45,581 nt of DNA from a virus. The stretch spans positions 1 through 45,581 of IMG/VR virus record IMGVR_UViG_3300050821_007240, one strand, 5' to 3'. The translations under genes and the position numbers were made by a program. Shown piece by piece: positions 8,851 to 41,674 of this stretch. Under the pieces are notes generated by a model. It did no database searches, had not been told where the DNA came from, and worked only from the letters and a program-made list of their open reading frames with translations. Positions within the stretch are counted from its first letter, which is position 1. Each line of letters opens with the position of its first letter.

Positions 8851-9042
8851 GTGAATGACACGCCGCATATTCAAGAACGCTACGACGCGTTGCGCGCCGA
8901 GATTTTGGTCCGGCGTCAGGAAGAACGCCGCATAAGGATTCTGTGCAATGACCCCGACGAGACGAAAACGCTACGCGACGTTGTACGCGATGCGCTACGG
9001 GCGACGACTGCTGCAGCGCAACGAGCGCGCCCGCATGGGTAG
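8851..9042 (+). CDS. Hypothetical helical protein, 63 aa
   Basis: GTG 8851 is preceded by GGGGAAAG. The protein is highly charged and helical (ERYDALRAEILVRRQEERRIR), with one Cys. Its last 8 bases overlap the polymerase start at 9035. No family is recognised. Confidence 0.6.
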   Translation: MNDTPHIQERYDALRAEILVRRQEERRIRILCNDPDETKTLRDVVRDALRATTAAAQRARPHG

Positions 9043-11377
9043 CGACTGCACCCTGTGCCCCCTCCATCGCGAAGCCCTCACCGTTTGCGTTCCCGGTCGC
9101 GGCAACCCTGACGCCAAGATTCTACTCGTGGGACAAAATCCTGGGCCTCGTGAGAATACGCTTGGCGAAGCCTTCATCGGGAAATCCGGCAAGCTGCTCG
9201 ACGAAATGCTTCTCGACGCCGGGTACAACCTCGACGACGTTTTCCGCACCAATGCGGTGAAATGTATCACACCCGTCGAGAAGGGCACGTTCTCCGAACG
9301 CGCGCCGATGACCGAGGAGATTGACGCCTGCCGCGAGCACCTCGTGCGCGAGATTCACGCCATGAAACCCGACGTTATCATTGCGTTGGGCGACGTGGCG
9401 CTGCGTTCGCTGACGCGCCTGTCGGGCATCGGGAACAAGCGCGGCAAGAGCTTCCCGCTGCACAAGAGCTTCGCGTATGACTGCGAGGTTTTCCCAACGT
9501 ACCACAGCGCCTACGTCATGCGCGTACCGATGAGCCGCAACACCGTCGTCGCGGACTTCCGGCGAATCCGCGACCGGGGCATGGAGCAGACTCCGATACA
9601 GTGGGAGTGGGTCAAGCCGCTGCCAAAGCTCTTGTGGCCCGTGTATGCGCAAGACTTCGTTGCCCTTGACATCGAAACGATTGACGGCGACGGCAAGATA
9701 ACACCTAACCCTACACAGGTCGCATTAGCATGGGGCGTCGATACCGTTAAGTGTGTCGTCGCGCTGATGCCGTATGACTTCGGTATTTGGCCCGAGACAA
9801 TGATTCACCACAACGGGCTCGACTTCGACTTACCGAAACTCGGGCGCGCGCCATCGGGCTACGACACCATGTACCTCGCGCACCTCATCGACGAGAACCA
9901 ACCACTAGGGCTCGAACCGTTGTGCGTCAAGTACCTCGGCGTTCGCGGCTGGAAGGAAGACGAGTTCGCACCGCTTGGCTCCGATGAACTTGCCGCTTAC
10001 AACGCGCGCGATGCCGTCAACACGCTACGCCTGTTCTTCAAAGAACGTGAGCTGCTCGGCCCGCGCATCAAGATTTACGAGCAGATTCTCCTGCCTGCCC
10101 GCTTGGCGCTCAACGAGTGCAGCCGCCGAGGGCTGTGGATTGACGGGCAGGCCGTCGAAGCGATGTGCGTCAAGGTCGAGGCCGACATCGAACGCTTCCG
10201 CACCAAGGTCAAGATGATTGCTAGCGAGACGATTCCGTTCCATGAACAGTCAGACTTCTCGAAGTTCAATCCCAACAGCATCGCGCAGGTCGCCGTCATT
10301 CTCCAGAAGATGGGCATAGAGCTGCCCAGGACGCGCAAGACGGGGGCCTTGAAGGTGGATAAGGGCGTGCTCCAAGCGCACCCGCAGAGCGGCTTCTGCG
10401 TGGCGCTGCTGGCCTATCGCGAGGCCACCAAGACCAAGAGCACCTACGTCACGCCCTACGCCCGCGCAGCGGCCTCAGGCAACCACCGGATGCACCCTGA
10501 GTACACCCTCATCCGCACCGTCGTCGGACGCACGTCGGCCCGTCGGGCGCGCAATCCCGTCGAAGGGCTCGACCCCGGCACCAACGTCCAAAACCTCGAC
10601 CGCGACTTGGAGTTCTTTGGCGCCCCGCCGGGGAAGGTGTTCGTCAAGGCCGACTACTCCGCGCTGCATTTTCGGCTCGCGGCCTGGTGCGCGGGAGCGC
10701 GTTCGATTCTCGACCGCTACGCCAAGGACCCCAACTGGGACCCGCACCGCTTCTTCGCCGCGCGATTTTATCGCAGCATCGACCACTTGATTCTGGAACG
10801 CACCGTCACCAAGGAGCAGCGACAGGTGGCGAAGTCCGCAAACTTTTCCCAGCTATACTTGGGCGACGAGCACACGCTGCAAAACTACGCCTATAAAATG
10901 GGCATCGAGTTGGAACTGCCGTTCTGCCGCGCGCTGCACGTTGCCTGGCACGCGACCTTCCCCGAGTTCCTCCCTTGGTATCAGCGCGTGTGGGACCAAG
11001 TAGTCGAGAAGGGCTACGCCGAGACGGCAGTCGGACGACGGCGGAACTTCGGTGACATCAAGCTGCTCAACAGAGCCGGGCGTGCCGCAGCGCATCGCGA
11101 GGCTGTAAACTTCCTCGTATTGGGGCTCGAACCCGACATCGCGCTGCTGGGCTTGAGTGAGTGCCAAAAAGCTGGATTACCCGTCAACGGCTTCTTTCAC
11201 GATTGCGTAAGTCTTGAGGTTGACAGCCGAGCCGTTTTCGAGGATAATAAGGACCTCATCACGCGCTGCATGATAGACCGCCCGCTGGCAATCTTGCGCG
11301 ACGAGTTCAACTGCCAAATAGATGTTCCGCTCGCCGTGGAGTTCACGGTGTACGACAAGGAGACGACAAGTGCCTAA
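9035..11377 (+). CDS. Uracil-DNA glycosylase / family A DNA polymerase fusion, 780 aa
   Basis: The frame is open to an ATG at 8948. ATG 9035 is chosen because the glycosylase family normally starts just before the first CxxC. Residues 1-190 resemble family 4 uracil-DNA glycosylases: cysteines 5, 8, 77 and 99 as [4Fe-4S] ligands, GQNPGPREN (33-41) and TYHSAYVMR with His157. Residues about 205-340 are a 3'-5' exonuclease with DIE (212-214) and Tyr322/Asp326. Residues about 380-780 are a Pol I-type polymerase: motif A Asp540, motif B with Lys600 and Phe604, motif C His722-Asp723. No 5' nuclease is present. SPO1 polymerase is a known case of a fused glycosylase-like domain. Together the parts would synthesise, proofread and check for uracil. 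Confidence 0.85.
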   Translation: MGSDCTLCPLHREALTVCVPGRGNPDAKILLVGQNPGPRENTLGEAFIGKSGKLLDEMLLDAGYNLDDVFRTNAVKCITPVEKGTFSERAPMTEEIDACREHLVREIHAMKPDVIIALGDVALRSLTRLSGIGNKRGKSFPLHKSFAYDCEVFPTYHSAYVMRVPMSRNTVVADFRRIRDRGMEQTPIQWEWVKPLPKLLWPVYAQDFVALDIETIDGDGKITPNPTQVALAWGVDTVKCVVALMPYDFGIWPETMIHHNGLDFDLPKLGRAPSGYDTMYLAHLIDENQPLGLEPLCVKYLGVRGWKEDEFAPLGSDELAAYNARDAVNTLRLFFKERELLGPRIKIYEQILLPARLALNECSRRGLWIDGQAVEAMCVKVEADIERFRTKVKMIASETIPFHEQSDFSKFNPNSIAQVAVILQKMGIELPRTRKTGALKVDKGVLQAHPQSGFCVALLAYREATKTKSTYVTPYARAAASGNHRMHPEYTLIRTVVGRTSARRARNPVEGLDPGTNVQNLDRDLEFFGAPPGKVFVKADYSALHFRLAAWCAGARSILDRYAKDPNWDPHRFFAARFYRSIDHLILERTVTKEQRQVAKSANFSQLYLGDEHTLQNYAYKMGIELELPFCRALHVAWHATFPEFLPWYQRVWDQVVEKGYAETAVGRRRNFGDIKLLNRAGRAAAHREAVNFLVLGLEPDIALLGLSECQKAGLPVNGFFHDCVSLEVDSRAVFEDNKDLITRCMIDRPLAILRDEFNCQIDVPLAVEFTVYDKETTSA

Positions 11378-11525
11378 CTCTACGCGAGAGCGCCCGCCGT
11401 TTTGGCCGCCGTATCAACCCAATGGCGAACCCAACTACGAACAGGCATGGCGCGAAGTCAATCGCATCGCGCAGCGCGGCACACTTGGCTATCAAACGCC
11501 GATTCGCGAGTGGTACGGATGCTAA
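11370..11525 (+). CDS. Hypothetical protein, 51 aa
   Basis: GTG 11370 follows ACAAGGAGACGA (11355-11366), the phage's favoured ribosome binding module, and overlaps the polymerase stop. Rich in Pro, Tyr and Trp at its N-terminus (RPPFWPPYQPNGEPNYEQAW). No family is recognised. It overlaps the nuclease start by 7 bases. Confidence 0.6.
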   Translation: MPNSTRERPPFWPPYQPNGEPNYEQAWREVNRIAQRGTLGYQTPIREWYGC

Positions 11526-12394
11526 CGCCACAAATCGTCAACGGCAAGCCCTATTTCGTCATCTCCATGAGCGGGCTGCAAGCGTTCAAACGCTGCCGCA
11601 AGAGCTTCGACTTAGGCTACGTTCGCGGCTACGAGGCCATCAGCGTACCCGAGCCCGTCGAACGTGGCGCGAGCATCCATCGGCACCTGGCGGCGCTGGC
11701 AACGGGGCAGGAGCAGTCCGTCATCACTGCCATCGAGCGGGGCGACCAGGATGCCGCCATTGCTTGGGCCTACAACGTCTTCAAACCCGTGCCGCAGGGC
11801 GAGCGCGTCATCGCCGTCGAGCAGCCCTTCTACCGCATCCTTATCGAACCGCACGACCCTGTACCCGGCATCATCATGCGCTGCACGTTCGACATGGCCT
11901 ACCGTTCGGATAGTGCCGTCGTCATTCGAGATTACAAGAGCTTCGACCGTGCTCCGACGCTCAACGTTGACCTCGACTTCCAAGGGAAGATTTACAGCGC
12001 GTTCGGGATGCGGTACTTCAAGACGCCGCACGTTTTCTTCGAGTACGAGCACATTCGGCGCACGCTGCCCAACGTCCCCAAAGACAAGTCGGGGGGAATG
12101 TGGAGCGAGTCGGAGTGCTACATCAATACCCAACTCATCATCTCGACCCGCGAGGCCGACGCGCTGTGGCTGGAAACTCAACAAGTGGCCTACGACCTCG
12201 TGCGCGCCATCGACGAGCAGCGATTCTACCGCACCGACCTGCGTGGCTCAAGCCCGCACACCTGCGCGAGCTGCTTCTTCCGTAACGGCTGCGTGGCCGA
12301 GGTGCAGCAGGGCGTGCTTGACAGTCAGACCGCAGCCCTTTTCTATGCGGTGCGCGAGCCCGTCACGATTCCCGAAGGGACCGTAGTCGAATGA
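11519..12394 (+). CDS. Fe-S PD-(D/E)XK nuclease, Cas4/RecB-like, 291 aa
   Basis: ATG 11519 overlaps the previous stop. The core PD-(D/E)XK signature is Asp125 with DYK at 138-140. The lead-in SGLQAFKRCRKSF and ERGASIH match the RecB/Cas4 nuclease fold. One N-terminal Cys (26) and three C-terminal ones (249, 252, 258, in CASCFFRNGC) reproduce the four-cysteine layout that holds a [4Fe-4S] cluster in Cas4 and AddB. A 5' or 3' end-processing exonuclease that makes recombination-ready single strands is the likely role. There are no CRISPR genes here, so the Cas4 likeness does not imply CRISPR. Confidence 0.8.
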   Translation: MLTPQIVNGKPYFVISMSGLQAFKRCRKSFDLGYVRGYEAISVPEPVERGASIHRHLAALATGQEQSVITAIERGDQDAAIAWAYNVFKPVPQGERVIAVEQPFYRILIEPHDPVPGIIMRCTFDMAYRSDSAVVIRDYKSFDRAPTLNVDLDFQGKIYSAFGMRYFKTPHVFFEYEHIRRTLPNVPKDKSGGMWSESECYINTQLIISTREADALWLETQQVAYDLVRAIDEQRFYRTDLRGSSPHTCASCFFRNGCVAEVQQGVLDSQTAALFYAVREPVTIPEGTVVE

Positions 12395-12504: not shown

Positions 12505-12830
12505 GCAGACTGCGCCCGTGCCTCGTATCGACGAACGAGCCGTGTATACCGGACGAGGATGCGCTTTGGCTCATCCGAGCCGCCGTGCGGCGTCGCGAGT
12601 CGCTCATTTACGGCAAGTTACGCGACAACGGTGGCGTCTGCGCCATCGGCGGATTCTTCGATGACTACCCCAAATCGGTACTGACGACGCGCCTCATCGA
12701 CGAGGTTGCTGGCGTTAACGATTCGCTAGGACCAAGGCGCTCGGCCAAGGAGCGCCGCAAAGAAGTTTTAAGGTTTCTAAACTACAAAATCAAACTACTG
12801 CTACACCGAAAGGACTCATCAGCAAAATGA
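12501..12830 (+). CDS. Hypothetical protein, 109 aa
   Basis: ATG 12501 lies three bases after CTCATCAGC, which also precedes the next gene's start by three bases. The protein is basic and mostly helical, ending in KERRKEVLRFLNYKIKLLLHRK, with one GGVCAIGGFFDDYP stretch. No family is recognised. The stop overlaps the next ATG. Confidence 0.6.
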   Translation: MSRLRPCLVSTNEPCIPDEDALWLIRAAVRRRESLIYGKLRDNGGVCAIGGFFDDYPKSVLTTRLIDEVAGVNDSLGPRRSAKERRKEVLRFLNYKIKLLLHRKDSSAK

Positions 12831-13075
12831 AAACCAAGCATCATCTCATCATGGCGTTAATGAACGCTGGCCTCGACGAGAAGCGCGCCGTCTACATCGC
12901 GGGCAAAGCCTTTGCCGAGCCGCGTGACGGTAAGCCCGCAGGGCCGCCCCCGCGCGAGTACGTCAAGATTCTCCACGACCGCATCGTCGTCGAGCACAAG
13001 GCCATCGAAACCGAGAAGCACGCGCTGCATCAGGCGCTGCAATCGTGGGACAACGAACGCGCTAATGGGAACTAA
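12827..13075 (+). CDS. Hypothetical protein, 82 aa
   Basis: ATG 12827 overlaps the upstream TGA. The N-terminal half (LIMALMNAGLDEKRAVYIAGKAF) is helical, followed by a Pro-rich turn (GKPAGPPPREY) and a charged helix rich in His and Glu. No family is recognised. It overlaps the ATPase start by 11 bases, so the two are probably translated together. Confidence 0.6.
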   Translation: MKTKHHLIMALMNAGLDEKRAVYIAGKAFAEPRDGKPAGPPPREYVKILHDRIVVEHKAIETEKHALHQALQSWDNERANGN

Positions 13076-13808
13076 GTTCCTCCTCGACGCTGACGGAACG
13101 GGCCGCGACTCCATCGGCAAGCGCATTGCCGCAGGCGAGGTGCAGCTCATTCCCTGCGGCAGCTTCGTGGAATACGATGCGGCCTGCATGAAGTTGGCCC
13201 AACGCAAGCCCCAACCCGGCGACCGCGTTGTCCTCGACACGTTCACGCACCTGCTCTCGACGACGCGCGGCGACTTCAAACACGGCACCGACCCTGCCGC
13301 ATCGGTATGGGCCAATCAGGCACTGTGGTTCGGGGACAAGCAAGGAATGAACGCTTACCAAGCGGCAAGCAATATGTCGATGCGCTGGCTCAAGAACCTT
13401 CGTAACGTCGGGTACGATTTAGTCGTGCTCGCACAAGAAGACGAGGCGCTCGACGAAGTGACGATGACGACCAAACGCGGCCCCAAGGCTAACCCCGAAG
13501 CGCGGGATATGCTGCTGGCGTCGTCCACCGACATCTTCCGCCTCACCGAAGTCACGCAAGACGTGACCGAAATGGTCAACGACGTGCCGACCGTCGTGCT
13601 GCCCAAGGGCGAACGACTGCTGCACCTGCGGCGCACCCGCGAAGCTACGGCGAAGTTTCACGTTGACCTCGACGTATCCCCAACGCTCCCCGACGCCATT
13701 AAGGCCCCGACGATGGAGAAGCTCTGCAAAGTGCTTGGGAAAACGCCAGGCTTCCTTGTCGTGTACGGATTAAGTGGTTCGGGCAAGACGACTTTCTCTA
13801 CTTCGTAA
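13065..13808 (+). CDS. RecA-like recombination ATPase with P-loop at the C-terminus, 247 aa
   Basis: ATG 13065 starts inside the previous gene; the frame upstream is a shadow. The body follows phage AAA_24/Sak4-type single-strand annealing ATPases: FLLDADGTG (5-13, the strand after the P-loop helix in relatives), Walker B RVVLDT (54-59, Asp58), YDLVVLAQEDE, LLASSTDIFRLTE and a C-terminal LPDAIKAPTMEKL. Relatives begin with the Walker A. Here it is the last element, YGLSGSGKTT (234-243), four residues before the stop. So strand 1 and the P-loop have moved from the N- to the C-terminus, a circular permutation. The next gene is SSB-like, as usual for Sak4 neighbours. Probable role: loading and annealing in recombination-dependent replication. 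Activity of the permuted form is unproven. Confidence 0.7.
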   Translation: MGTKFLLDADGTGRDSIGKRIAAGEVQLIPCGSFVEYDAACMKLAQRKPQPGDRVVLDTFTHLLSTTRGDFKHGTDPAASVWANQALWFGDKQGMNAYQAASNMSMRWLKNLRNVGYDLVVLAQEDEALDEVTMTTKRGPKANPEARDMLLASSTDIFRLTEVTQDVTEMVNDVPTVVLPKGERLLHLRRTREATAKFHVDLDVSPTLPDAIKAPTMEKLCKVLGKTPGFLVVYGLSGSGKTTFSTS

Positions 13809-13849: not shown

Positions 13850-14446
13850 ATGGCAGAATCCGATTACAAACAACTCAGTAGCGAGGACATTGCCGGGGGC
13901 ATCAAGCTCTCGGACATCTCCGAAATGGGGGCGCTGGTCCCCGCCGGACGCTACAAGGTTCGGCTCTCGCGCGTCGAGGCCAAAGACTCCAAGAGCGCCA
14001 TCCCAATGGTGCTCGCGGGCTTCGATGTCCACGACGGTATCGTGGCGCCGCCCAAGGACGGCTCCCAACCCGTGAGCATCGAGAGCCTCAAGGGCGTCGA
14101 ATCGACGGTATTCTACTCGATGTACGTCGGCAAGTCCGAGAAGTCGGGGCGCACGATTGCGCCGGGTATCATGGAGTTCAAGGCTGCGGCTGCTGCCGTG
14201 GGCAAGCCGCTGCCCGACGACTTCATCATCCCCGGCAACCCCAAGGAGTTTGCACGGCTCGTGCATGACACGCTGCACCCGCGTAGCGTCGGGGACCTCG
14301 AAGCCGTCGTGCTCGACGAGCCCGACCGCAACGACAAGACCAAGACCCGCACGCGCACGCGCATCGTCGGACGCTGGGGCGGCTCCGGTGCCCCCGAAAT
14401 CCCCATCGCCGCCGGTAGCAGCGGCACCGTCGCGAACATCGTCTAA
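13850..14446 (+). CDS. SSB-like protein (DUF669-type), 198 aa
   Basis: ATG 13850 follows a 41-base gap with CTCATCAGC and GAAAG. ALVPAGRYKVRLSRVEAKDS (residues about 24-43), then a long beta-rich part, resembles the DUF669/OB-fold single-strand-binding proteins that accompany Sak4-type ATPases in phages. The C-terminus is Lys/Arg/Thr-rich (KTKTRTRTRIVGRWGG) and then flexible. It should coat single strands and work with the ATPase next door. The stop overlaps the next ATG (TAATG). Confidence 0.6.
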   Translation: MAESDYKQLSSEDIAGGIKLSDISEMGALVPAGRYKVRLSRVEAKDSKSAIPMVLAGFDVHDGIVAPPKDGSQPVSIESLKGVESTVFYSMYVGKSEKSGRTIAPGIMEFKAAAAAVGKPLPDDFIIPGNPKEFARLVHDTLHPRSVGDLEAVVLDEPDRNDKTKTRTRTRIVGRWGGSGAPEIPIAAGSSGTVANIV

Positions 14447-14745
14447 TGCCCGAAGGCGCTATCACCTCGCGCGTGCTCAAGGAGTTACGCGCGAGGGGCG
14501 TCGCCGCGTTCAAGCACTTCAGCGGTGCGTATTCGTCGCGGGGCATCAGCGACATCATCGGCGTGCTGCCGCCGCACGGGCGGGCGTTCTTCATCGAGAT
14601 GAAAACCCCCGAAGCCTACAAGACCGCCTGCAACGGCGCGACTGCCCATCAAGTCGAGTTCCTGCGCGAGATGCGCGCAGCGGGAGCTATCGCGTTCTGC
14701 GCGAGTTCGTGGGAGATGGTACGCGAGACGCTGGGCCTGCCTTAG
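14446..14745 (+). CDS. VRR-NUC nuclease, 99 aa
   Basis: Length and pattern fit stand-alone VRR-NUC domains: an N-terminal helix, SRGISD (31-36) with Asp36, FFIEMKTP (48-55) with the catalytic E51-x-K53, then AHQVEFLREMRAAGAIA. These PD-(D/E)XK enzymes are structure-selective and could resolve branched DNA before packaging. It is the last + strand gene. Its TAG (14743-14745) overlaps the stop of the opposing late arm. Confidence 0.8.
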   Translation: MPEGAITSRVLKELRARGVAAFKHFSGAYSSRGISDIIGVLPPHGRAFFIEMKTPEAYKTACNGATAHQVEFLREMRAAGAIAFCASSWEMVRETLGLP

Positions 14746-30819: not shown

Positions 30820-31785
30820 CTAGGCTCCATTTGAACCTACCACGCCTCGGCCATTTGCGGCGCCCCACGCGGAGCGGAACTCGGTTTCGTGATTGAGCGA
30901 CTGCGTGTCTTCTTGGTAGAAGGCGCGCTGCTCATCCCACTTCGTGGTGGCGAACATCGTGTGGGCGTCGGTGCCGGGCATACCCTTGCCCGAGGCCACG
31001 AACCACGGGTACGGCCCGTTAGTCGGCGCGGTGAGATACTCCGAAGCGCACGGCTGCAACGTACCGGCCACGACATTGACGCGGTTCTCGTCGGTTGACG
31101 GGTAGTAGTAGGACGACATCACTTCGGTCGCCGTCTGATGCAAGAAGATGGGATAGATGAGTTGGACCGGCGTGCGGCTGGTCTGCAGCCCCCGGTCGTC
31201 GGGCATCGAGAGCATCAGGTTGAAGGCTTGATTGATGGTTTCGACGGTGAGCGCGACCGGCCCGAGGTAGTTGCTCCACGTTATGCCCGGCGCACCCGCG
31301 CAGGTGTGGACGTTGGAGAACAGCGCGAGGCCGTCGTTGACATCGTAGCCGCCCGAACCCGCTGCGAGGAAGCCGAGATTGAGGATGTTCCAGAAGTTGA
31401 CTTCCTGCGTTTGGTAGGACGAGTACCGCAGCAGTCGCGGCAGCATCGGAATGATTTTGCGAGCGTCTTCGCGCGCCATCTCTTTGGTAACGATGTAGCG
31501 CAGCGCGTATGAAACGTATGGAAAGAACTGCAGCGTGCCTTCCGACGCGGCGTCGATGCTGGCGGTCTGCCCTTCCTGTTTGACGGGGAGGTAGCCGAAG
31601 CCGACGATGGAGAGCAGTTGAAAGAACTGCCGTTCCATGTCGCCTTCCCAGCCCGAGCCCGAACCGTTGAAGACGGCGGGGTAGCGCAGAGGCTTCATCG
31701 GGTCGGTATTTGAGTAAATATCCGTGACGATGTGCGTCTGCGCTTGGAAGAAGGTCCTGGTGTTCGTAAGCGTCGATTGCGCCAT
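30820..31785 (-). CDS. Major capsid protein, HK97-fold type, 321 aa
   Basis: Order and content fit a Mu gpT-like/HK97-fold capsid: an N-terminal arm, residues about 85-135 with the long helix VSYALRYIVTKEMAREDARK, then DGLALFSNVHTCAG, and P-domain strands with NVVAGTLQPCASEYLT and PYPWFVASG. It lies after the decoration and scaffold genes in transcription. No N-terminal protease extension is seen and no prohead protease is recognised nearby. It should form the icosahedral shell. Confidence 0.75.
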   Translation of the reverse strand: MAQSTLTNTRTFFQAQTHIVTDIYSNTDPMKPLRYPAVFNGSGSGWEGDMERQFFQLLSIVGFGYLPVKQEGQTASIDAASEGTLQFFPYVSYALRYIVTKEMAREDARKIIPMLPRLLRYSSYQTQEVNFWNILNLGFLAAGSGGYDVNDGLALFSNVHTCAGAPGITWSNYLGPVALTVETINQAFNLMLSMPDDRGLQTSRTPVQLIYPIFLHQTATEVMSSYYYPSTDENRVNVVAGTLQPCASEYLTAPTNGPYPWFVASGKGMPGTDAHTMFATTKWDEQRAFYQEDTQSLNHETEFRSAWGAANGRGVVGSNGA

Positions 31786-31786
31786 G

Positions 31787-32359
31787 CTAGTGCCCCGTTA
31801 CTGGCGAGAGGTCGGCAGGAATGAATGAGATGTAGACGCGCGCGCCGAGGTCGCCTACCCCCCCGAAGCCGGGGCCCAGGATTTTCTGCGAGACGTAGGC
31901 CACCTTGTTGCTGGCGTTGGGGTCGGCGTAGAAGAAGCCGGTCGTGCCGTCGATGCCCAACCCGACTGCCGTGCCCAGCGTCGCCTGATACGTTCCGCCC
32001 GACACCCAGCCGGTGAGCGCCGAGAGGTTGATGGCGACGATGATGTTGGCGCCCAGGGTTACGACGAGCACCTCGCCCGGCGTGCCGGGTAAGAGCGGCG
32101 TGTTCTCCTGGGAGCTTCCGAAGACGGCTTGCAGCCCGGTCGTTACTTGGTCGTAGACCGCGTTGCTGTCGTGCTGCGCGATGCCGATGATGCCCGAGGC
32201 CACGTTGGCCGAGCACGTCTCAATCTCGCCCGAAGTCGAGTGGAACTGCACGATGTCGGCGTCGTTAATATGTGAATAGGCCCGCGCCGAGAATATCGGG
32301 GGCCCCATCTGACCCGATGCGACGTTCGCAATCGGACTTTGGTAGGGAATAAGTGCCAT
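31787..32359 (-). CDS. Head decoration/stabilisation protein, 190 aa
   Basis: ATG 32359 with GAGGACG just before it. The frame is open 21 codons further into the promoter region, but that part is implausible. Beta-rich, Gly-rich (VASGIIGIAQHDSNAVYDQ, EVLVVTLGANIIVAINLSAL, YVSQKILGPG), as in capsid-decorating proteins encoded directly before the capsid. First gene behind the promoter at 32394-32422. Confidence 0.6.
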   Translation of the reverse strand: MALIPYQSPIANVASGQMGPPIFSARAYSHINDADIVQFHSTSGEIETCSANVASGIIGIAQHDSNAVYDQVTTGLQAVFGSSQENTPLLPGTPGEVLVVTLGANIIVAINLSALTGWVSGGTYQATLGTAVGLGIDGTTGFFYADPNASNKVAYVSQKILGPGFGGVGDLGARVYISFIPADLSPVTGH

Positions 32360-32393
32360 GTACGTCCTCGCAGAGAAGCGTTTCTGCGTCTGA

Positions 32394-32422
32394 GTATGGC
32401 TGGGCCGCGTCGGCGGTGTCAA
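32394..32422 (-). promoter_or_regulatory. Late capsid promoter
   Basis: On the - strand: TTGACA (32422-32417), 17 bases, then CATACT (32399-32394), four of six to the -10 consensus. It lies between a strong hairpin and the decoration gene, so capsid mRNA can start afresh after upstream transcription stops. Confidence 0.55.
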
Positions 32423-32437
32423 AGAGGACCGGGCACG

Positions 32438-32472
32438 ACAAGGCCCCCGCTTATGTCAGACGGGGGCCTTGT
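32438..32472 (-). terminator. Strong hairpin between scaffold and capsid genes
   Basis: Perfect 12-bp stem, ACAAGGCCCCCG (32438-32449) with CGGGGGCCTTGT (32461-32472), and an 11-base loop. Neither side has a clear T-run, so it may slow or process RNA and not fully terminate. Its place just upstream of a promoter supports a boundary role. Confidence 0.6.
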
Positions 32473-32502
32473 GGTACGACACTAGTGGTTCCCGAGAGAT
32501 TG

Positions 32503-33162
32503 CTACTCGATTGGGCTCAGGACTTCCTTTCGAGTGTATTCGACCGACGCCTGCCCGCGCGTGAGTTCCTTCACTTGGTCCTTGAGCCGCTCGAACGGCG
32601 CGCCACCGGCCTGCTTCATAATCGCTTGGGCCGCCGGGAGCTTGTAGAGCCGTTTGACGGCTTCGGGCGTGACTTCCATCAACTGCACGTCGAACATTTG
32701 AGCATACGCCTTCTTCCCGGCGTTCTTGTGCGTCACGAGTTCGTACTGCGAGATGGGAAGGTCGATGTCGTCCTTCAACTCGTCAAGCTCGACGCGCCGG
32801 TAGAGATGCGAACGCACCTTAGCTGCTGCCAGCGGGTCGTCTTTCTTGGCCCAAACGTACATCGCACCGGGAAGCGGGTCTTTCATGTACTTGGCCGTGT
32901 CGGCGAAGATGGACTTGTGGTCGCCCGCGAGATATTCGTGGTCGAGATTGAGGTCGGAGATTTTGACTTTGCGCCCGTTGGGGAAGACGACGTACCCTGG
33001 CTCGGCGCGGTTGGCAATCTGCTCGGGTGTTGCGGTGAGGTTCCGCAGCGACGTAACCGCCTGCTGCGAAAAGTCCTCGGTTACGTCACCCGTTTCGATA
33101 CCGGCGTCGTTGAGCAGCAAGTCGGCCTGCTCGCCCGTGAGTTTGGGATTCATGGCCGTCAT
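32503..33162 (-). CDS. Hypothetical head-module protein, 219 aa
   Basis: ATG overlaps the scaffold gene's TGA. Mixed charged helices with a central alpha/beta part (GYVVFPNGRKVKISDLNLDHEYLAGDHKS). It is the last gene before the hairpin boundary and next to the scaffold, so a capsid assembly role is likely, but no family is recognised. Confidence 0.55.
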   Translation of the reverse strand: MTAMNPKLTGEQADLLLNDAGIETGDVTEDFSQQAVTSLRNLTATPEQIANRAEPGYVVFPNGRKVKISDLNLDHEYLAGDHKSIFADTAKYMKDPLPGAMYVWAKKDDPLAAAKVRSHLYRRVELDELKDDIDLPISQYELVTHKNAGKKAYAQMFDVQLMEVTPEAVKRLYKLPAAQAIMKQAGGAPFERLKDQVKELTRGQASVEYTRKEVLSPIE

Positions 33163-33953
33163 GCGCGTCCCTCGGCTTCCATTTCATCAAGGGCTTTGCG
33201 GATACGGTCCTCGGGAATCCCCGCATCACGCGCGCTCAGAACGTACTGCTTCTGCACGGCGTTGAGCGCCTTCTGCCGCGACGCCGGTCGCTGACCGGAA
33301 CTCACGCTGCCCGTCGCATACGGCGGCGGGTCTTCGCGCCGACCGTTGCGCGCCTGCTTCATCGCGTACTTGCCCGCCGATATCTCGTAAATCGCTTCGA
33401 CGGCCTGGTCCTGCATATCTATCGGCATCGCCGCGATGCCGGGCATGGCCTGGTTGACGCGCTGCTCGAAGTCGTCTTTAACGTGGGGGAACAACGGGTC
33501 GTCTTTGGCTTGTGCCACGAAGTTGCGAATCGCTTGACGCGCGTTTCCCGTCGCCGCCGGGGCTTGCGCCTTGGCAAGTTCCGCTTTGACCATCGCCTGA
33601 TTGAACGCGAAGATGTCTTGCGCGGCGCCTTCGTAGTCACCCTCAAGCTGCTTCTTGGAAATCCCGCGAAGATAGGCTTGGTACTGCTCGCGGCTGGCCG
33701 CTTCATCGACGACCGGCGCTGCCGGTGCAGCAGGCGCCGTTACGACCGGCGCGCGTTCAAGTGCAAGGCGGGCAGTGTCACGCTCAACGGCGTAGAGTGC
33801 GGCGTCGCGTGAGACTTTATCGAGTTCGGCTTGGAGTTCTTCGGCGGTCTTGGGTTTGGTAGGAGCCGCTGGGAGGGCGTCGAGTCGGGGGTCGGTAATC
33901 TCGGGTTCGTCGTCTACGTCAAGACGGAACGGCTCTTGGTCGTTAGGGTCCAA
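33159..33953 (-). CDS. Scaffolding protein, 264 aa
   Basis: TTG 33953 is chosen with AAAGGAA before it; TTG 33959 is also possible. Acidic N-terminus (PNDQEPFRLDVDDEPEITD), long charged helices (AEELQAELDKVSRDAALYAVERD), a Pro/Ala linker and a basic helical C-terminus (QKALNAVQKQY...RIRKALDEMEAEGRA). This composition and the position between portal and capsid are typical of scaffolds. It should guide the shell and then leave. Confidence 0.65.
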   Translation of the reverse strand: MDPNDQEPFRLDVDDEPEITDPRLDALPAAPTKPKTAEELQAELDKVSRDAALYAVERDTARLALERAPVVTAPAAPAAPVVDEAASREQYQAYLRGISKKQLEGDYEGAAQDIFAFNQAMVKAELAKAQAPAATGNARQAIRNFVAQAKDDPLFPHVKDDFEQRVNQAMPGIAAMPIDMQDQAVEAIYEISAGKYAMKQARNGRREDPPPYATGSVSSGQRPASRQKALNAVQKQYVLSARDAGIPEDRIRKALDEMEAEGRA

Positions 33954-34206
33954 TGTCAAGTTCCTTTTTGAGCCAGGGAGGAATGTCGAGGGACACCTTG
34001 TCGAAGGCCCCCGTAATCCCTGCACAGAGGGCCTCTATTGCCCGCTGGTAGCCCAGCCGCTCATCCAGCGGCAGCGCGAAGTTATGCACCAGCTCGCGGC
34101 GCCAGCTCCGAATGAACTCCAGCTCCCCTTCGAGGTAGAGCCGGAACCCGTTGCTGCGAAGGAACTCGTTGAAAAGCTCGCGCTGCTCGCGGTTGAGGTC
34201 GGCCAC
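33943..34206 (-). CDS. Hypothetical protein, 87 aa
   Basis: GTG 34206 overlaps the portal stop (TAG, then GTG sharing a base). The longer open frame is a portal shadow. Helical N-terminus (REQRELFNEFLRSNGFRLYLEGELEFIRSW), then LDERLGYQRAIEALCAGITGAFD. No family is recognised. Confidence 0.6.
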   Translation of the reverse strand: MADLNREQRELFNEFLRSNGFRLYLEGELEFIRSWRRELVHNFALPLDERLGYQRAIEALCAGITGAFDKVSLDIPPWLKKELDIGP

Positions 34207-36143
34207 TACGCCGCTGGCGCTTGCGGCGGCGCGGGAGCCTGTGGGCGCTGCGGCGCTTGCGGTGCGCCGGGATGCGGTTTGCCGAACGCGGCGTGACTGA
34301 TGACCTGCATGAGCATCTGCTGTTTTTGGGCATCCTGTTGGGCCTTCGCCATCGCTTGGGCCTGCTGCATCGCTTCTTGCATCGTACCGATGTACGCCGT
34401 AACTTCGGGAATGTCGTGGGTTTCGAGCACCATGCGCGTCATCTGCCAAATCCGCCCGAGGTTCCCTTGTACCAGCGGGTTGGGCATGAGGAACTGCGCG
34501 AGCATCAGCGAGTCTTGTTTGCGCTGCTCCTTGTCAAACGGCCCACCGCCGCCCGAGACGCCCATCGTCATATCAAGCGAGAGAATCTCTTTGGGAACGG
34601 TAACGGTCTGCGTGCCTTGAGAAGTCGGCATGGCGGCCTGCATTTGGTCGTCGCCGTACTGGATGTAAAGCCCTAACGTATAGTTGCCCAAATCCAGAAG
34701 CCACTCGCGCGCGTCGGTAATGACGCTGTTGCTCTGCATCGCAAGAATCGCTTGCTGAGCCTGCGCGGCCCGTGCCGATTGACGCGCACCCGACGCGACC
34801 GGAGCGGCAGCGGCTTGCGGGCTCCCAACGGCGCGGTCGGCTAACTGATAGAGCGACTGCTCCTCGATAGTGGACTGCTGCGGAATGGTCGGCGCGTCCA
34901 CGAAGCCGAAGTCTTCTTTCTTGGTGACGATAATCTCCGAGTCCATGCCCCAGCGTTTGTCCTCGTCGGCAAACTTGACGGCGTTGGTGCGCCAGCGCAT
35001 CGGAGAGAGCGCGTAGTCGAGCATATCGAGCCGCCCGTTGTGCTGCGCGTTGCCTTCCTCTTGCGCGAACCGCACGAGTTCAGGCACCGAGAACCCGTAG
35101 AAGCGATTGGGACGCGGGATAAGACTGAGTGGAAAGTACGGCCAGCCGCGCCAGTATTGGAACGGCGCGACGCCGAGCAGAATCCGCCCCTGGTCGTAGG
35201 TCCACACGAAGTTGTCTTCAAACTGCCCGTCGCCGTCGAGGTCAAACGTGCGCCACAACCCGCGCCACACTTCAATCGGCCCGCGCGCCAGGCCGAGGTT
35301 GTCGGGCGGCGCCACGCCGATGTCGGCCACCTGCACGCGCCCGGCAATCGTGTAGGTCCGCGCGCCTTGACGGTCACGGCTGAGTTCACCCATGCCCGAT
35401 TGCACATAGGACAGCGCCTTCTCGACGGCATCGGGGTAAAAGATGCCCGCCGACACCATGCGCTGGCAGTCCATCTCACTCATATAAATCTTGCGAACGA
35501 ACCCGTCAGCCGCGGCAATCGACGGCGCGTACACCGGGCAGAGCAGCGCATCGCGCAGTTCGATGGCCTGCCACGATGGGTCGTCGTAATCAACGATGCT
35601 CACCTTGCGGCGCACCGTCTTGCCCGTACCGGGGTCCTTGTCGAGGCGGTACTCGGTGCGCGCGGTGAGTTTCCACATCACCTCCATCACCGACGTACCA
35701 TCGCGGGCCGACAGGTGCATGGCCTGTTTGGCCTCTTTGTGCCAACGTTTCTCGTCGTACTTCCCGTTGATGAACTGCTCGACGACGTGGGCGTACTGCG
35801 CCGCCACCGGGTCGTTGCCGTGCATCGTAAACGGTCGCGGCCCAAGTACCGTCCCGGCGATGCGGCTGGTGAACTCGTTAACCGCCGAATGAACCACCGG
35901 GAGGCAGTAGTTGCTCGCGTTGGGCCACGGATAGTCACGCGGGCGGGTACGCATCTCGTACATCGCGTTCCAGTAATCCAGGGTGTAATCCAACGCTGCA
36001 CGGTTGCCGAGATTGAGGTCGATAAGGATGCTCTGCGTCTCGCCTAAGCTCTGACGCTGCGCCTCATCAAGTTCGGGAATCGGCAGCGAAAGTGGCTGAG
36101 ACGGAAACAGCGTGCCTGTTATCGAACGCTGTGCGCGCGCCAC
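34206..36143 (-). CDS. Portal protein, 645 aa
   Basis: GTG start with AGGACA nearby. Features of large podovirus-type portals: PWPNASNYCLPVVHSAVNEFTSRI (residues about 73-96), a wing and stem region with FYGFSVPELVRFAQEEGNAQHN, the crown part with Ala/Gln-rich stretches, and a long C-terminal Gln/Ala/Pro tail (KAQQDAQKQQMLMQV, PQAPAPPQAPAA). It forms the twelve-fold entry ring for packaging, bound by terminase and adaptor. Confidence 0.8.
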   Translation of the reverse strand: MARAQRSITGTLFPSQPLSLPIPELDEAQRQSLGETQSILIDLNLGNRAALDYTLDYWNAMYEMRTRPRDYPWPNASNYCLPVVHSAVNEFTSRIAGTVLGPRPFTMHGNDPVAAQYAHVVEQFINGKYDEKRWHKEAKQAMHLSARDGTSVMEVMWKLTARTEYRLDKDPGTGKTVRRKVSIVDYDDPSWQAIELRDALLCPVYAPSIAAADGFVRKIYMSEMDCQRMVSAGIFYPDAVEKALSYVQSGMGELSRDRQGARTYTIAGRVQVADIGVAPPDNLGLARGPIEVWRGLWRTFDLDGDGQFEDNFVWTYDQGRILLGVAPFQYWRGWPYFPLSLIPRPNRFYGFSVPELVRFAQEEGNAQHNGRLDMLDYALSPMRWRTNAVKFADEDKRWGMDSEIIVTKKEDFGFVDAPTIPQQSTIEEQSLYQLADRAVGSPQAAAAPVASGARQSARAAQAQQAILAMQSNSVITDAREWLLDLGNYTLGLYIQYGDDQMQAAMPTSQGTQTVTVPKEILSLDMTMGVSGGGGPFDKEQRKQDSLMLAQFLMPNPLVQGNLGRIWQMTRMVLETHDIPEVTAYIGTMQEAMQQAQAMAKAQQDAQKQQMLMQVISHAAFGKPHPGAPQAPQRPQAPAPPQAPAA

Positions 36144-36177
36144 TAGTGTCCTAGAAGCACTAAAGCGAGGTAATTCA

Positions 36178-37656
36178 CTAGAGCCCTAGCGCCGCCGTGT
36201 GCGTGCAGAGCGTAGTTTGCGAAAGCGCCGTGTTGTGCACCGAGAGTTTCGCCATCCGGCCGAGGAATGGGGGATTTGCCCCTGGGACTCCGCCCCAGCC
36301 TCCCGGGGAACCGGTATTATAGACACCGCTGGCAGCCTGGCTTGTACTAAAAAGCAGTTCGCAGTTGACATAAAAAGACAGCGTTGTAGCAGAGCTATTG
36401 TAAACAAGCGCCTCATCGAGTGGTACGCCAATCGCCATCATATCTATTGGGCCCTTGGCACCCGAAGAGCCGCCGTAAAATAGTTTGTGCCCAACGAAAC
36501 TCGACGTTAGTACGTTGTCGTCAATCGTGTCCGACAGAATCGCGCCGTTGCTTCCGTCCAGTTCAAAAATAACCGCCGTAAGGCTTCCTGAAGCAATGTA
36601 GGGTGACGCGCTCTTGTCTACCCACTCAATCGTGTACGAGCCGCTTGTCGGCATCGTTACGGCCGGTACTACAAAGTAGCCTTGCCCGACGTTTGCAGTT
36701 CCGTTATTTGTGGCGGCCGGGAACTCGATGGAGGTTTCGCCATCATTTGTGATACTTGGAAACCCGCAAACGGGATACGGACCCGGTGTGCCGCCAGGCG
36801 TGGGCGTCGTAAGCGGAACCGGAGAAGGTACGGCGGTCGCGCCGCCAGCGATAGCGTCGGCTATCGTCGTGCACCCGCTCGCATCGTTCCCCTTCCAAAA
36901 GTGCGTGGCGCTAGCTTCAGAGAGAATCAAGCCGTCATAGCTGCTGTTGGTAGGCGAGCAACTCGACGCGGTGAGGTTCAACTCCATCTGCCCCGCCACC
37001 ACGGGGAAGCACGGCCCAAGGTTGATGGACGCGACGTTCGTGGTCGAGTTCCAAATGATTGGCGGCGAGCCGCTGGGAACCGGGCTAATCGTCCCCGCCG
37101 GGCCTGGCGAACCCGGCGGCCCAGTAGGGCCCGCAGGCCCTGGCGCACCCGATGCTCCCGGCTGCGTCACGCGCGCTACCGACGCCGAACAGGTAATCGT
37201 CACGGGCACTACACCCTGCGTAAACGAGAGCTGCACGAAGACCCATTGGTCGCTGGCGAGACTGACGTACACTTTCGCGGGCGCCCCCGAAAACGTCGGT
37301 GCAGGCGTCGCGTAGAACGGGCTCGTGGTCGGGCCGGGCTTGTTCCCGATGTCGGCAGCCGTCCACACCTGAGCGGTAAAGATGGCCGCAATCGGCGTAC
37401 TGGTCGGGCCGGGAGTCGGCGTCGCGGGAGGCGTCGGGCTGGGCGTCGGCGTGGGGCCGGGGATGGTCGTCGCGAGGGCCTGGATGACGGCGGTGCTCTG
37501 CCCCTGGCCGCAGCGCCCGTAAATCAGCGGGTTGGCGCTGGAGAGCGGGCTGGGGCTCTGAAACTGATTGCTGGGAATGTCCGCGCGAAGCCCCGTCGCC
37601 ATCGAAACGACGAGCGCCACGGCGCCGAGGGCCGAGAGCGCGTACTTGAGCCGCAT
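36178..37656 (-). CDS. Exported collagen-like and LamG-like protein, 492 aa
   Basis: AAGGAGGC precedes ATG. Residues 1-25 are a clear signal peptide (MRLKYALSALGAVALVVSMA, cut after about LRA). A Pro/Thr linker (about 66-90) follows, then a Gly-x-y collagen-like run (about residues 169-188), another Pro/Thr linker and a C-terminal beta domain with the feel of a LamG lectin (KLFYGGSSGAKGPIDMMAIG). Unusual for a phage: it should leave the cell by the Sec route, not stay in the capsid. It may coat the host or bind sugars. Lies between terminase and portal. Confidence 0.65.
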   Translation of the reverse strand: MRLKYALSALGAVALVVSMATGLRADIPSNQFQSPSPLSSANPLIYGRCGQGQSTAVIQALATTIPGPTPTPSPTPPATPTPGPTSTPIAAIFTAQVWTAADIGNKPGPTTSPFYATPAPTFSGAPAKVYVSLASDQWVFVQLSFTQGVVPVTITCSASVARVTQPGASGAPGPAGPTGPPGSPGPAGTISPVPSGSPPIIWNSTTNVASINLGPCFPVVAGQMELNLTASSCSPTNSSYDGLILSEASATHFWKGNDASGCTTIADAIAGGATAVPSPVPLTTPTPGGTPGPYPVCGFPSITNDGETSIEFPAATNNGTANVGQGYFVVPAVTMPTSGSYTIEWVDKSASPYIASGSLTAVIFELDGSNGAILSDTIDDNVLTSSFVGHKLFYGGSSGAKGPIDMMAIGVPLDEALVYNSSATTLSFYVNCELLFSTSQAASGVYNTGSPGGWGGVPGANPPFLGRMAKLSVHNTALSQTTLCTHTAALGL

Positions 37657-37665
37657 GGGGCCTCC

Positions 37666-37923
37666 TTACTTGGCGGTGATTTTTTTCTTGCGCGGGGCCG
37701 CCGACGGCTTGGGAATCTGCGCGATGGCCTTGCCGGGGTTGGGCGTCATCGCGACCTGCTTGGCGCGCGACTTGGCGGCGAGGGCCTTGACGGCTTTGGG
37801 ATGGTGCGGCGCGCCCTTCTTCTCGGCCACCTTGCCGGGGCGACCGCCCTTGATGGCATCCTTCGCCATCGCTTTCATCATCATCACTTTTTTGCCGCCG
37901 GGGCGCTTTTTGCTCGCGGACAT
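37666..37923 (-). CDS. Lys-rich protein, 85 aa
   Basis: Overlaps the gene before it by one base (TAATG). Lys, Arg, Ala and Gly dominate (KKRPGGKKVMMMKAM, APRKKKITAK), with a Met patch. Histone-like composition fits DNA or RNA binding, perhaps inside the head. No family is recognised. Confidence 0.6.
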   Translation of the reverse strand: MSASKKRPGGKKVMMMKAMAKDAIKGGRPGKVAEKKGAPHHPKAVKALAAKSRAKQVAMTPNPGKAIAQIPKPSAAPRKKKITAK

Positions 37924-38165
37924 TACTTCTTGGCCTTACCGGGGAGCGCGACGCGCGGCTTGGGGCCGTCCCAGCCTTTGCCCTTGTGAATCGTTTTAAT
38001 CGGCGTCGCGGAGCTTTTCTTGCCCGCGCCCAATCCGGCGGTTTCGCGCACCGTGCGGATGGGATTAGGGTCCCCGGCCTTGATTTTGCTGCCCATGCCC
38101 ATCGCCTCGGTTTGCGAGGGAACGTGCAGGATGCCGGAGCCCTTACGGTCTTTCTTTGCGCTCAT
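37923..38165 (-). CDS. Lys-rich protein, 80 aa
   Basis: Starts after a clear ribosome binding site (AAGGAGAC). Another highly basic protein (MSAKKDRKGSG, PGKAKK at the end) with Gly and Pro. Placed with its basic neighbour between terminase and the exported protein. No family is recognised. Confidence 0.6.
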   Translation of the reverse strand: MSAKKDRKGSGILHVPSQTEAMGMGSKIKAGDPNPIRTVRETAGLGAGKKSSATPIKTIHKGKGWDGPKPRVALPGKAKK

Positions 38166-38177
38166 GTGTGAGTCTCC

Positions 38178-39872
38178 TTAGACGGGATAGTCGCGATTAT
38201 CATACGCGGTCCTGCCTCCAGGGGTCAACGAGGGCCTCCCGGTTACGTCCCATTGTGTGCCCGCGCGCGAGCCGGGGCGGTCGTACGCGCCCGCGCCGAA
38301 CGTCTTTTGATAGCGTTGGTACTCGGGGTCAATCGGGTTGTCGTCTTCGCGCTGCCACGACTCCGGTATGCGCGCGAACTCCTCGTGCTGTGCCAACGAA
38401 TCGAGTACGTCCTCGTGCTCTTGCTGCGCCGAGATGCTGAAGCTCTCGATTTGATTGAGCAGAACGTGGTGCTGCGGGCGCAGGATGTACCCGCCGCGCT
38501 CCCAACGTGGCTGCACCGCCGTCGCGATGCGGACGTTCTTGGGCACGCCGCCGGTGCGGTACTCGTAAATATAAATCCGTGGGATGCCGCGCCGGTCCAA
38601 CTCGACGCACAGCAGTTCTTGCCACATCCCGCCGCCGCCGTCTTGTTCGATGGAGAGCGCCCACAGCTTGTAAAACAAAATCAGGTTGATAACGGCGTTG
38701 ACGACCTCGGTGGGCTTGCCTTTGTAGCTGAGTGCTTCGCAGACCCAACGCAAGTCGGCCATATCGGTGCCGCACACGGTGATGCCGTGGCTGTCGGAGG
38801 TCGCCGTCGCGATGCGCCCCGCCGGGTCCCACGCCCCGGTCGTGAGCACGGGCATTTGACCGCGACCCGGCAGCACGACGTAGCCCCCTCCGGTACGCCG
38901 CGCGAGGAAGTCGAACGCCCGAACGCGGCTGCGCTCCATCGCAAACGTGCGGTCCTCGTCGGCAATCGGTTCGTTGTTATATTGGGCCTCGAACTTGCGG
39001 CTGCCCATGCGCTCGCGCTGGTCGCGCAGGAAACTTTCGGTCAAAACCGATGGAAAGAACAGCGTGCCGTCGGGATTGTGGCACTTGTGAATGATTTTGG
39101 TGAAAAACGGACGTTCTTTTTCACGGACGCGCTGCGCGTCGGCGCGAATCAGCCGCCCGTAGGCGTCATCGGTGTGCCAGCGCGTAAATATAAGCACCAA
39201 AACGCCGGTTGGGCTCAAAATCGGCAGCAAATCGAGGATGTAGTCGTACACCTTGTCGCGCATCTGCTTGGTACGGATGTTCGTGTCGGTTACGAAGTCG
39301 TCACCAATGATTAAATCGAAGTGGCCGCCGGTCATCGAGCGGTCCAAACCCGCGCACGCGATGCTAGGGTCAATCAGCGTCTTATCCGTGCGCCGCATGA
39401 CGTAAATCGAGTCGTCGTTCCACACGTCTTCGCGGAACTCGGGCTTCCAGCCGTCGCCAAACCATGCGTGAAAACGTTGGTTGAACTCTAAATCTTGTTT
39501 GACGGCCCGCAGGCGCTTCTTACTGATGTCGTGGCGGAAGCTGCTGATGAGCACGCGGGCATTTGGGTTGCGCCCAAGCGTCAGCGAAGGCAGCCCTTGA
39601 GCAAATAGCGTCGTCTTGTAGGTGTGGCGGGGCAGCCCGACCATGTAGAGCCGCTGCTCGCCCGTCGAAAACGAATAGTCGCCCATCGCGGTGTCGATGA
39701 ACTCGGCCACTTCGAGGTGCGGTTGGGGCTCTACGTCATAGCCATAAATGTTTTTGAACGCGCTGTAAGCGAAACTCGCGTTGCAACGTGCGAGGATAGC
39801 GTCGTCGGGCTCCGCTGGCGCGGGGTCGCGAGCCTCGAAACCCGATAGCTCGTCTAAAAGACCATCATACAT
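38178..39872 (-). CDS. Terminase large subunit, 564 aa
   Basis: ATPase part: a Walker A-like GLPRHTYKTT (79-88), Walker B FDLIIGDD (185-192) and coupling motif FTRWH (229-233). The nuclease part starts near residue 340 and ends with HEDVLDSLA, the acidic RNase H-type signature. The motor pumps DNA into the prohead and cuts it. The ATG is preceded not by a ribosome binding site but by a terminator-like hairpin (39882-39920) whose tail, TTTTCTCTT, touches the start codon. No small subunit is certain. Confidence 0.85.
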   Translation of the reverse strand: MYDGLLDELSGFEARDPAPAEPDDAILARCNASFAYSAFKNIYGYDVEPQPHLEVAEFIDTAMGDYSFSTGEQRLYMVGLPRHTYKTTLFAQGLPSLTLGRNPNARVLISSFRHDISKKRLRAVKQDLEFNQRFHAWFGDGWKPEFREDVWNDDSIYVMRRTDKTLIDPSIACAGLDRSMTGGHFDLIIGDDFVTDTNIRTKQMRDKVYDYILDLLPILSPTGVLVLIFTRWHTDDAYGRLIRADAQRVREKERPFFTKIIHKCHNPDGTLFFPSVLTESFLRDQRERMGSRKFEAQYNNEPIADEDRTFAMERSRVRAFDFLARRTGGGYVVLPGRGQMPVLTTGAWDPAGRIATATSDSHGITVCGTDMADLRWVCEALSYKGKPTEVVNAVINLILFYKLWALSIEQDGGGGMWQELLCVELDRRGIPRIYIYEYRTGGVPKNVRIATAVQPRWERGGYILRPQHHVLLNQIESFSISAQQEHEDVLDSLAQHEEFARIPESWQREDDNPIDPEYQRYQKTFGAGAYDRPGSRAGTQWDVTGRPSLTPGGRTAYDNRDYPV

Positions 39873-39881
39873 AAGAGAAAA

Positions 39882-39920
39882 CCCGGCAATGACAAGGAGA
39901 CGAATCCAAACATTGCCGGG
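39882..39920 (-). terminator. Terminator-like hairpin before terminase
   Basis: Perfect 10-bp stem: CCCGGCAATG (39882-39891) with CATTGCCGGG (39911-39920), and a 19-base loop. On the - strand it is followed by TTTTCTCTT, a fair intrinsic terminator tail, directly before the terminase ATG. On the + strand the loop contains ACAAGGAGACGA, identical to the early-gene ribosome binding module. Confidence 0.65.
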
Positions 39921-39944
39921 TCCTAGTCAGAAACGAGCGTGCGG

Positions 39945-40238
39945 TTACGTTTCCAGGAATGACTTTAGCACATTCATGGCCGCCCGTCGAGTTTCACGGG
40001 CGAGTTCGAGGTCGGCCTTGTCGGCGTGCTCCTCGGCTTTGCAGAGTTGGTTGAACCCCGACGTGACGAGATTGAAGGCGTGCGTGGCACGGGCGCTTGC
40101 GTACTGCCGGTCGTTGAGGAGCTTCTGATACTCGAACGCTTCGCGTTGCGTCGCTATTTCCTCCTCGGACGGCGGACGGGGCACGGGATGCACGCCGACG
40201 GTTCCACGCAACTCGGGAGGGACGTTGCGTAAATCCAC
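39945..40238 (-). CDS. Hypothetical protein, 97 aa
   Basis: GTG overlaps the upstream TAG. Pro-rich start (PELRGTVGVHPVPRPPSEEE), then a continuous charged helix (QREAFEYQKLLNDRQYASARA and on). Lies just upstream of the terminase, where a small subunit would be expected, but it has no helix-turn-helix that I can see. A DNA-packaging role remains possible. Confidence 0.55.
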   Translation of the reverse strand: MDLRNVPPELRGTVGVHPVPRPPSEEEIATQREAFEYQKLLNDRQYASARATHAFNLVTSGFNQLCKAEEHADKADLELARETRRAAMNVLKSFLET

Positions 40239-40573
40239 TAGTCGGGCGTCTCGGTAACGAGAAGGTCATCGGTCGCCAGCGCTTCGGTAAACGTGAAGCC
40301 GCGACCGAACAGGTCAACGTGCTGCGAGAGCTTGGTCTTGGGCAGCGGGTACTTCATCGTGAACGGCGCGTCGGCAAGCATCGCGAGCAGCAGCGCGATG
40401 ACTTCGGTGCCGAACGTCTTACCGCTGGGGAGCAGTTGCGCTTGCAGGTTCTGCAGTGCGGTGACGGCAGCGGCTTTGGCTGCCGGGTCGGGCGGCGGTG
40501 CGGGCGCGACTGCCGGTTCGTTACCCGATTGCGAATCATAGTTCGCTTCGGGCGTCTTGGGGTCGGTATACAT
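40238..40573 (-). CDS. Hypothetical protein, 111 aa
   Basis: Pro/Ala-rich, acidic N-terminus (residues 1-35), then helical regions (AAAVTALQNLQAQLLP, TEVIALLLAMLADAPF) and a basic beta part. No family is recognised. It lies between holin candidate and terminase. Confidence 0.55.
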   Translation of the reverse strand: MYTDPKTPEANYDSQSGNEPAVAPAPPPDPAAKAAAVTALQNLQAQLLPSGKTFGTEVIALLLAMLADAPFTMKYPLPKTKLSQHVDLFGRGFTFTEALATDDLLVTETPD

Positions 40574-40575
40574 GA

Positions 40576-40887
40576 CTAACTCGCTTTCGTTGGCGGAGCG
40601 GTAGGGATTGGGGAGATGGTGTTGATTCCGGTAACGGGAGTATTCGCCGTCGTCACTGTCGTTCCGGCAGGAACCGATGGCGCAAAGTCAATGACGGACT
40701 TTGCAGGGGCATCGGTCTTGTTCGTCAGCACACGGATGATTTGCCCCGCAGCAAGCCCCACGACCGCAAGGATGCCCGCCACATACGCGCCGTGGCCGGG
40801 GAACAGCGTTTCGAGCGCGGGCTCCGAGATGCCCGATGCGACGGCGGCAATGATGGAGCAGATGGATACGATGTCGCTGACGGTCAT
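40576..40887 (-). CDS. Holin candidate, two membrane spans, 103 aa
   Basis: Two hydrophobic segments, about residues 3-20 (VSDIVSICSIIAAVASGI) and 34-54 (YVAGILAVVGLAAGQIIRVL), with a polar turn. The soluble Thr/Pro-rich tail is about 50 residues. Size, two spans and closeness to the lysozyme (41055-41672) fit a class II-like holin. A second small two-span protein sits between them, so which one makes the hole is not settled. Confidence 0.6.
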   Translation of the reverse strand: MTVSDIVSICSIIAAVASGISEPALETLFPGHGAYVAGILAVVGLAAGQIIRVLTNKTDAPAKSVIDFAPSVPAGTTVTTANTPVTGINTISPIPTAPPTKAS

Positions 40888-41672: not shown

Positions 41673-41674
41673 AG

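Follow-up and report, generated by a model that had tools for sequence, protein, structure and literature searches.

The window analysed here, that is, the whole stretch of 45,581 nucleotides, is a 45.6 kb virus record with podovirus-like head-tail genes. On its plus strand lie, in this order, a DNA polymerase I with an N-terminal UDG-superfamily domain (PolA; 8948-11377), a Cas4-like PD-(D/E)XK exonuclease (11402-12394), two small ORFs, the Sak4-type ATPase gene that concerns us (13065-13808; 247 aa plus stop), a weakly SSB-like or DUF669-like protein (13850-14446; E 0.002), likely the Sak4 partner, and a Holliday-junction-resolvase-like endonuclease (PHROG_93; 14446-14745). This is the usual genomic place of Sak4, with PolA and a Cas4 exonuclease on the 5' side and an SSB-like gene on the 3' side, with the reservation that the SSB assignment is weak. 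An 82-aa ORF on the same strand (12827-13075), for which no homologue was found and which has no P-loop, overlaps the start of the ATPase gene. The 9-mer CTCATCAGC, following AAGG or TAAG, occurs at window positions 12489, 12815 and 13825, just 5' of the starts at 12501, 12827 and 13850; these are three of the four exact copies in the window, and the 9-mer is perhaps a repeated leader or a cassette boundary. An 11,085-base contig of another IMG/VR record (locus L087) is 100% identical to window positions 31376-42460, and the same phage population has therefore been assembled twice.

The protein encoded by the gene (hereafter the window protein) matched PHROG_124, the Sak4-like annealing proteins (1.6e-17, residues 43-220), Pfam AAA_24 (PF13479; 1.7e-8, residues 44-197) and, by profile, the Sak4 of PDB 8rc5 (4.9e-14). 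GC contents at the three codon positions (0.62/0.44/0.76) agree with those of the adjacent polymerase gene (0.62/0.42/0.78), which argues that the frame is coding. Third-position GC is 0.55 in the 22 tail codons (13740-13805) against 0.76 in the whole gene, but these codons are too few to judge.

The order of elements along the chain is β2, Walker B, the old C-terminal helix, a linker of about six residues, β1, the P-loop and the stop. Profile alignment places β2, Walker B and the old C-terminal helix in a body (residues 3-225; 13071-13739) that represents the whole Sak4 core minus β1 and the P-loop. The chain thus begins with β2, as the initial annotation had proposed when it placed the N-terminus at the strand that normally follows the P-loop helix. 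At the end of β2 stands D8-A-D10 (13086-13094), where normal Sak4s have D-x-x-E, and the Walker B strand VVLD (residues 55-58; 13227-13238) ends at Asp58, the residue which that annotation had named. At the old C-terminus, LPDAIKAPTMEKLCKVL aligned to LPxxIxxPTxxxLIxxI of normal Sak4s; β1 comes a few residues later, across the short linker (residues 225-230; 13737-13754). The β1 strand (residues 231-235; 13755-13769), shifted from the N- to the C-terminus according to the alignment and present as a strand in the structure model, runs into the Walker A motif, the P-loop YGLSGSGKTT (residues 234-243, with K241 and T242; 13764-13793), and only the four residues FSTS (13794-13805), the end of the short P-loop helix and the new C-terminus, separate it from the stop, just as had been read from the letters. 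In the alignment, FSTS corresponds to FCTS, FGAS or FAAS of normal Sak4s. The final 18 residues, FLVVYGLSGSGKTTFSTS, thus consist of a hydrophobic strand and Walker A. The core is complete, the variable N-terminal extension of Sak4 being the only part absent.

Normal order was found in 86 distinct syntenic Sak4 proteins from isolated phages and two IMG/VR polymerase scans. Similar gene orders with an N-terminal P-loop Sak4 occur in Pseudomonas phage PMBT14, Serratia phage Opt-155, Gordonia phage SteamedHams, Mycobacteroides phage 8UZL and a spring-water phage. One normal-order gene, at locus L066 (11861-12730), has a single in-frame TAG in the conserved stretch LPMV*IYTAQER, which could be a nonsense mutation, an error or a site of readthrough.

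Against a reference profile built from 64 normal-order Sak4 relatives, the native window protein gave two domains whose order was inverted, with hmm 136-262 aligned to residues 94-224 (22.1 bits) and hmm 37-52 to residues 232-247 (7.9 bits). Put into normal order, it gave a single domain (hmm 37-261, 45.1 bits). When all 247 rotations were scored, the best cuts fell at residues 225-230 with 46-47 bits, and the best-domain score rose from 22.1 bits in the native chain to 46.9 near residue 229, compared with at most 27.7 for shuffled tails (n=500). The natural break, between FSTS and TKFLLD, corresponds to the loop that joins the P-loop helix to β2 in normal Sak4s, where about three residues separate GKT-T/R-F-x-x-S/T from β2. 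Since the break falls in this short loop, no helix is missing, and the suggestion that a partner might have to supply one finds no support.

The tail could in principle be not the native Sak4 P-loop but one acquired from a different ATPase, an idea to which the weak matches of clamp-loader and STAND-type profiles to the tail lend some support, as does a third-position GC lower than that of the body, although over 22 codons only. Nevertheless, when the tail was swapped for P-loops of other proteins (n=65), no score exceeded 38.1, compared with 45.0 when the true tail was in place and a mean of 52 for Sak4 P-loops. VYG...GKTTFSTS therefore scores as a Sak4 P-loop, above 65 of 65 decoys, and the joint lies exactly where a normal Sak4 would be circularised, so that we regard capture as very unlikely.

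The search for homologues with the same order, which the initial annotation had called for, yielded two, both permuted. They lie on contigs of 46.5 kb (L114) and 52.5 kb (L152) from other metagenomes, with the Sak4 gene in the corresponding position and a C-terminal P-loop (...LVVYGPPKIGKTTWVAGAAYLTGVER in L114 and ...MTVYGFPKVGKTVFSTTLPT in L152). Identity among the three permuted proteins is 25-32%, and both relatives can be aligned with the window protein over their full length. None of them has the order expected of a Sak4, with β1 and Walker A before the body. A joint profile of these three proteins matched normal Sak4s as two segments in opposite order, and PHROG_124 matches in the window and L152 records were likewise reversed; in the L114 record, PHROG_124 matched only the P-loop piece, together with a short P-loop match in an unrelated frame of 663 codons. 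No second Sak4 was seen elsewhere in the three records in this PHROG_124 search. The AAA_24 match, which runs through the body, exceeds the curated cut-off in all three members.

These relatives also bear on whether the order is merely an assembly error, a frameshift or a pseudogene remnant. The window is a single metagenomic contig, and an independent assembly of the junction was looked for without success. However, the same order recurs on two contigs from other metagenomes at 25-32% identity, the frames are open and coding, and in L114 an in-frame TGA directly precedes the GTG start, so that an N-terminal P-loop would be impossible there without a frameshift. Unless both L114 and L152 are independently wrong, this explanation is refuted; we find it hardly credible, and error, frameshift and chance can be considered effectively excluded. 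It had been recognised that the permutation would be overturned if relatives had the usual N-terminal P-loop and the window protein had lost it through a frameshift or misassembly, but the close clade is itself permuted. Because the profile domains are reversed, the rotation test restores a single domain, and two divergent, independent relatives repeat this order at the corresponding locus, the sequences support a genuine circular permutation in a Sak4/AAA_24-type ATPase, as first proposed. The upstream small ORFs were also considered as a source of a P-loop and rejected: none in the window has one, and they are not homologous among the three phages.

The three permuted phages are monophyletic in the PolA tree (0.993) and in the Sak4 tree (0.990), and this grouping points to a permutation that arose in one event. 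Taken over the clade as a whole, conservation is highest in the transferred tail, with 45-50% identity against 16-48% elsewhere, and linker residues G225 and P228 are conserved within it. TerL, portal and SSB-like proteins of the three phages were not detectably related in searches run without a positive control, which is why the replication module may travel separately.

The AlphaFold model of the window protein reached a pLDDT of 72.6 and a pTM of 0.66, compared with a pLDDT of 36.5 without an alignment. It contains a strand at residues 231-235, even though hardly any relatives were aligned in those columns; pLDDT falls below 50 in residues 235-247, for which the alignment offered no relatives. 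The best VIA match of the model was the Sak4 of phage 52A (8rc5; Z 11.1, rmsd 3.4, 162 residues), spanning residues 1-227 of the window protein, followed by Rad51 paralogues (8faz chain D, Z 10.5). Top matches in BFVD were Sak4/RecA-like recombinases, and a Foldseek search against the PDB gave no match at E <= 0.001.

Walker A and Walker B, both expected of a Sak4, are present as K241/T242 and D58, the last invariant in 43 of 43 aligned proteins; Y234, D8 and G13 are also kept. The Glu conserved after β2 (D-x-x-E-x-G in 83% of normal members) is absent, the window protein having D8-A-D10-G11, and Asp takes its place as D-x-D in L114 and L152 as well. The Arg of AQER is lost in the window protein, which keeps 16 of the 36 positions conserved in at least 75% of normal Sak4s, whereas every normal member keeps at least 23. 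Its Sak4 identity of 0.198 is slightly below expectation, namely the 0.234 of pairs with similar polymerase identity (n=23). In the 8rc5 structure, Lys41/Thr42 of one protomer hold the ATP analogue jointly with Lys229/Arg231/His232 of its neighbour (PMC11846896). By our reading of the alignment, a TGxR-like motif in L152 (YTGLR) and L114 (AAGVR), with AKFH at that position in the window protein, may correspond to the residues of the neighbouring protomer.

Taken together, the evidence leads us to the view, with a probability of roughly 0.78, that the gene product is a Sak4 which is circularly permuted yet functional, carrying out ATP-dependent single-strand annealing on a RecA/Rad51 core within the phage replication-recombination module. 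The C-terminal β1 and P-loop would slot into the central sheet of their own chain (in cis), next to Walker B, so as to rebuild a normal ATP site from K241/T242 with D58, with Asp10 substituting for the catalytic Glu. Packing in cis and ATPase activity are both inferences, for which the AlphaFold model offers only weak support, and there are no biochemical data. The Sak4 of HK620 performs ATP-dependent single-strand annealing with an SSB partner (PMC5928155), and by analogy the window protein may anneal SSB-coated single strands together with the SSB-like protein encoded immediately downstream. As to its origin, we infer that the simplest route, tandem duplication followed by loss of flanks, would have involved an ancestral duplication of sak4, then a new start in the first copy and a new stop in the second. 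No informative repeat or other trace of a duplicate was found around the gene.

A rival to this reading concerns hydrolysis. The permuted protein might bind ATP and hydrolyse it poorly or not at all, acting as a structural or mediator paralogue in the manner of RadB or the Rad51 paralogues, with loss of the Glu tied to the permutation. The change from D-x-x-E to D-x-D in three of three permuted members, the lost AQER Arg and the greater divergence of the window protein relative to normal Sak4s would fit this proposal. So would the roles of Sak4 and Rad51 paralogues, which serve as annealing or mediator proteins (PMC5928155). Against it, no Walker A or Walker B residue has been lost, and RecA itself has D-A-E, one residue nearer, so that D10 may still be catalytic. 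On balance we consider weak or absent hydrolysis possible but doubtful.

Another arrangement would be a domain swap, in which the C-terminal β1 and P-loop enter the neighbouring protomer and the ATP sites of a filament are completed in trans. The tail is terminal, the linker is short, and in the filaments formed by the Sak4 of phage 52A, ATP sits where two protomers meet (PMC11846896). Yet a linker of about six residues makes closure in cis simplest, and direct evidence for a swap is lacking, leaving it quite improbable. Somewhat broader, though still unlikely, is the idea that the permuted order changes the filament, either by exchange of the terminal P-loop strand between protomers or by making it a removable ATP-site element that regulates assembly on DNA; if true, this would be the first natural circular permutation in the RecA/Rad51 recombinase class and one that alters how the filament works.

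Read as a functional permuted Sak4, the window protein would be a new form of the family and not an ordinary member. It resembles known Sak4s (PHROG_124, including those of HK620, PA73 and phage 52A) in being a RecA-core homologue by profile with Walker A and B, in its PolA-Cas4-Sak4-SSB-resolvase neighbourhood and in its size, which matches Sak4 minus the disordered N-terminus, but differs from them in its C-terminal β1 and Walker A and in having D-x-D, not D-x-x-E, after β2. Unlike in AAA_24 phage nucleotide-binding proteins, the N-terminal P-loop part of that profile is unmatched at its N-terminus. Natural permutations are known in the P-loop GTPases RsgA (YjeQ) and YlqF (RbgA) (PMC6912228), which still bind nucleotide; however, these are TRAFAC GTPases with another break point and function, the product of a separate permutation event. 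The NKxD guanine-specificity motif of such G4-G1-G3 GTPases was not found in the 247-aa sequence, and the RsgA_GTPase profile matched the window protein only at E 0.23. Archaeal RadB and the eukaryotic Rad51 paralogues (BCDX2 complex) share the minimal RecA core and are the second-best structural matches, but keep the normal motif order. The open-licence literature, which leaves out subscription papers, yielded no account of a RecA/Rad51-class recombinase permuted in nature.

RecA/Rad51-class ATPases are usually seen as fixed in the order Walker A then Walker B. A permuted version kept over large divergence in a phage clade would imply that this order is not required, and would mark the loop between the P-loop helix and β2 as a place where the chain can open beside the ATP site. 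Nature would thereby have supplied a ready way to ask whether connectivity of the chain matters for forming filaments and for controlling annealing by ATP, and the break point could serve in the engineering of RecA-like proteins.

The case also carries a warning, namely that profile searches may underscore or miss permuted recombinases. Only three permuted members were found. Searches with single-protein peptide patterns, tblastn in 50,697 phage genomes and body-only alignment gave no relatives, and a scan of IMG/VR and GTDB contigs for an in-frame stop after a P-loop returned only wrong frames or truncated ordinary proteins; the latter pattern missed L114 and L152 because its spacing was fixed and TGA stops were excluded. 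Both were recovered by a second alignment-based IMG/VR scan with the polymerase. Two frames that end soon after an N-terminal P-loop (L101, 1171-1215; L107, 9839-9883) are apparently truncated ATPases. Ten PolA loci are sister to the permuted clade (L164, L166, L180, L070, L049, L054, L074, L077, L078 and L079), several of them short contigs, with no clear intact Sak4 near PolA. The layout of the UDG-domain DNA polymerase I (window 8948-11377) is similar in most related loci.
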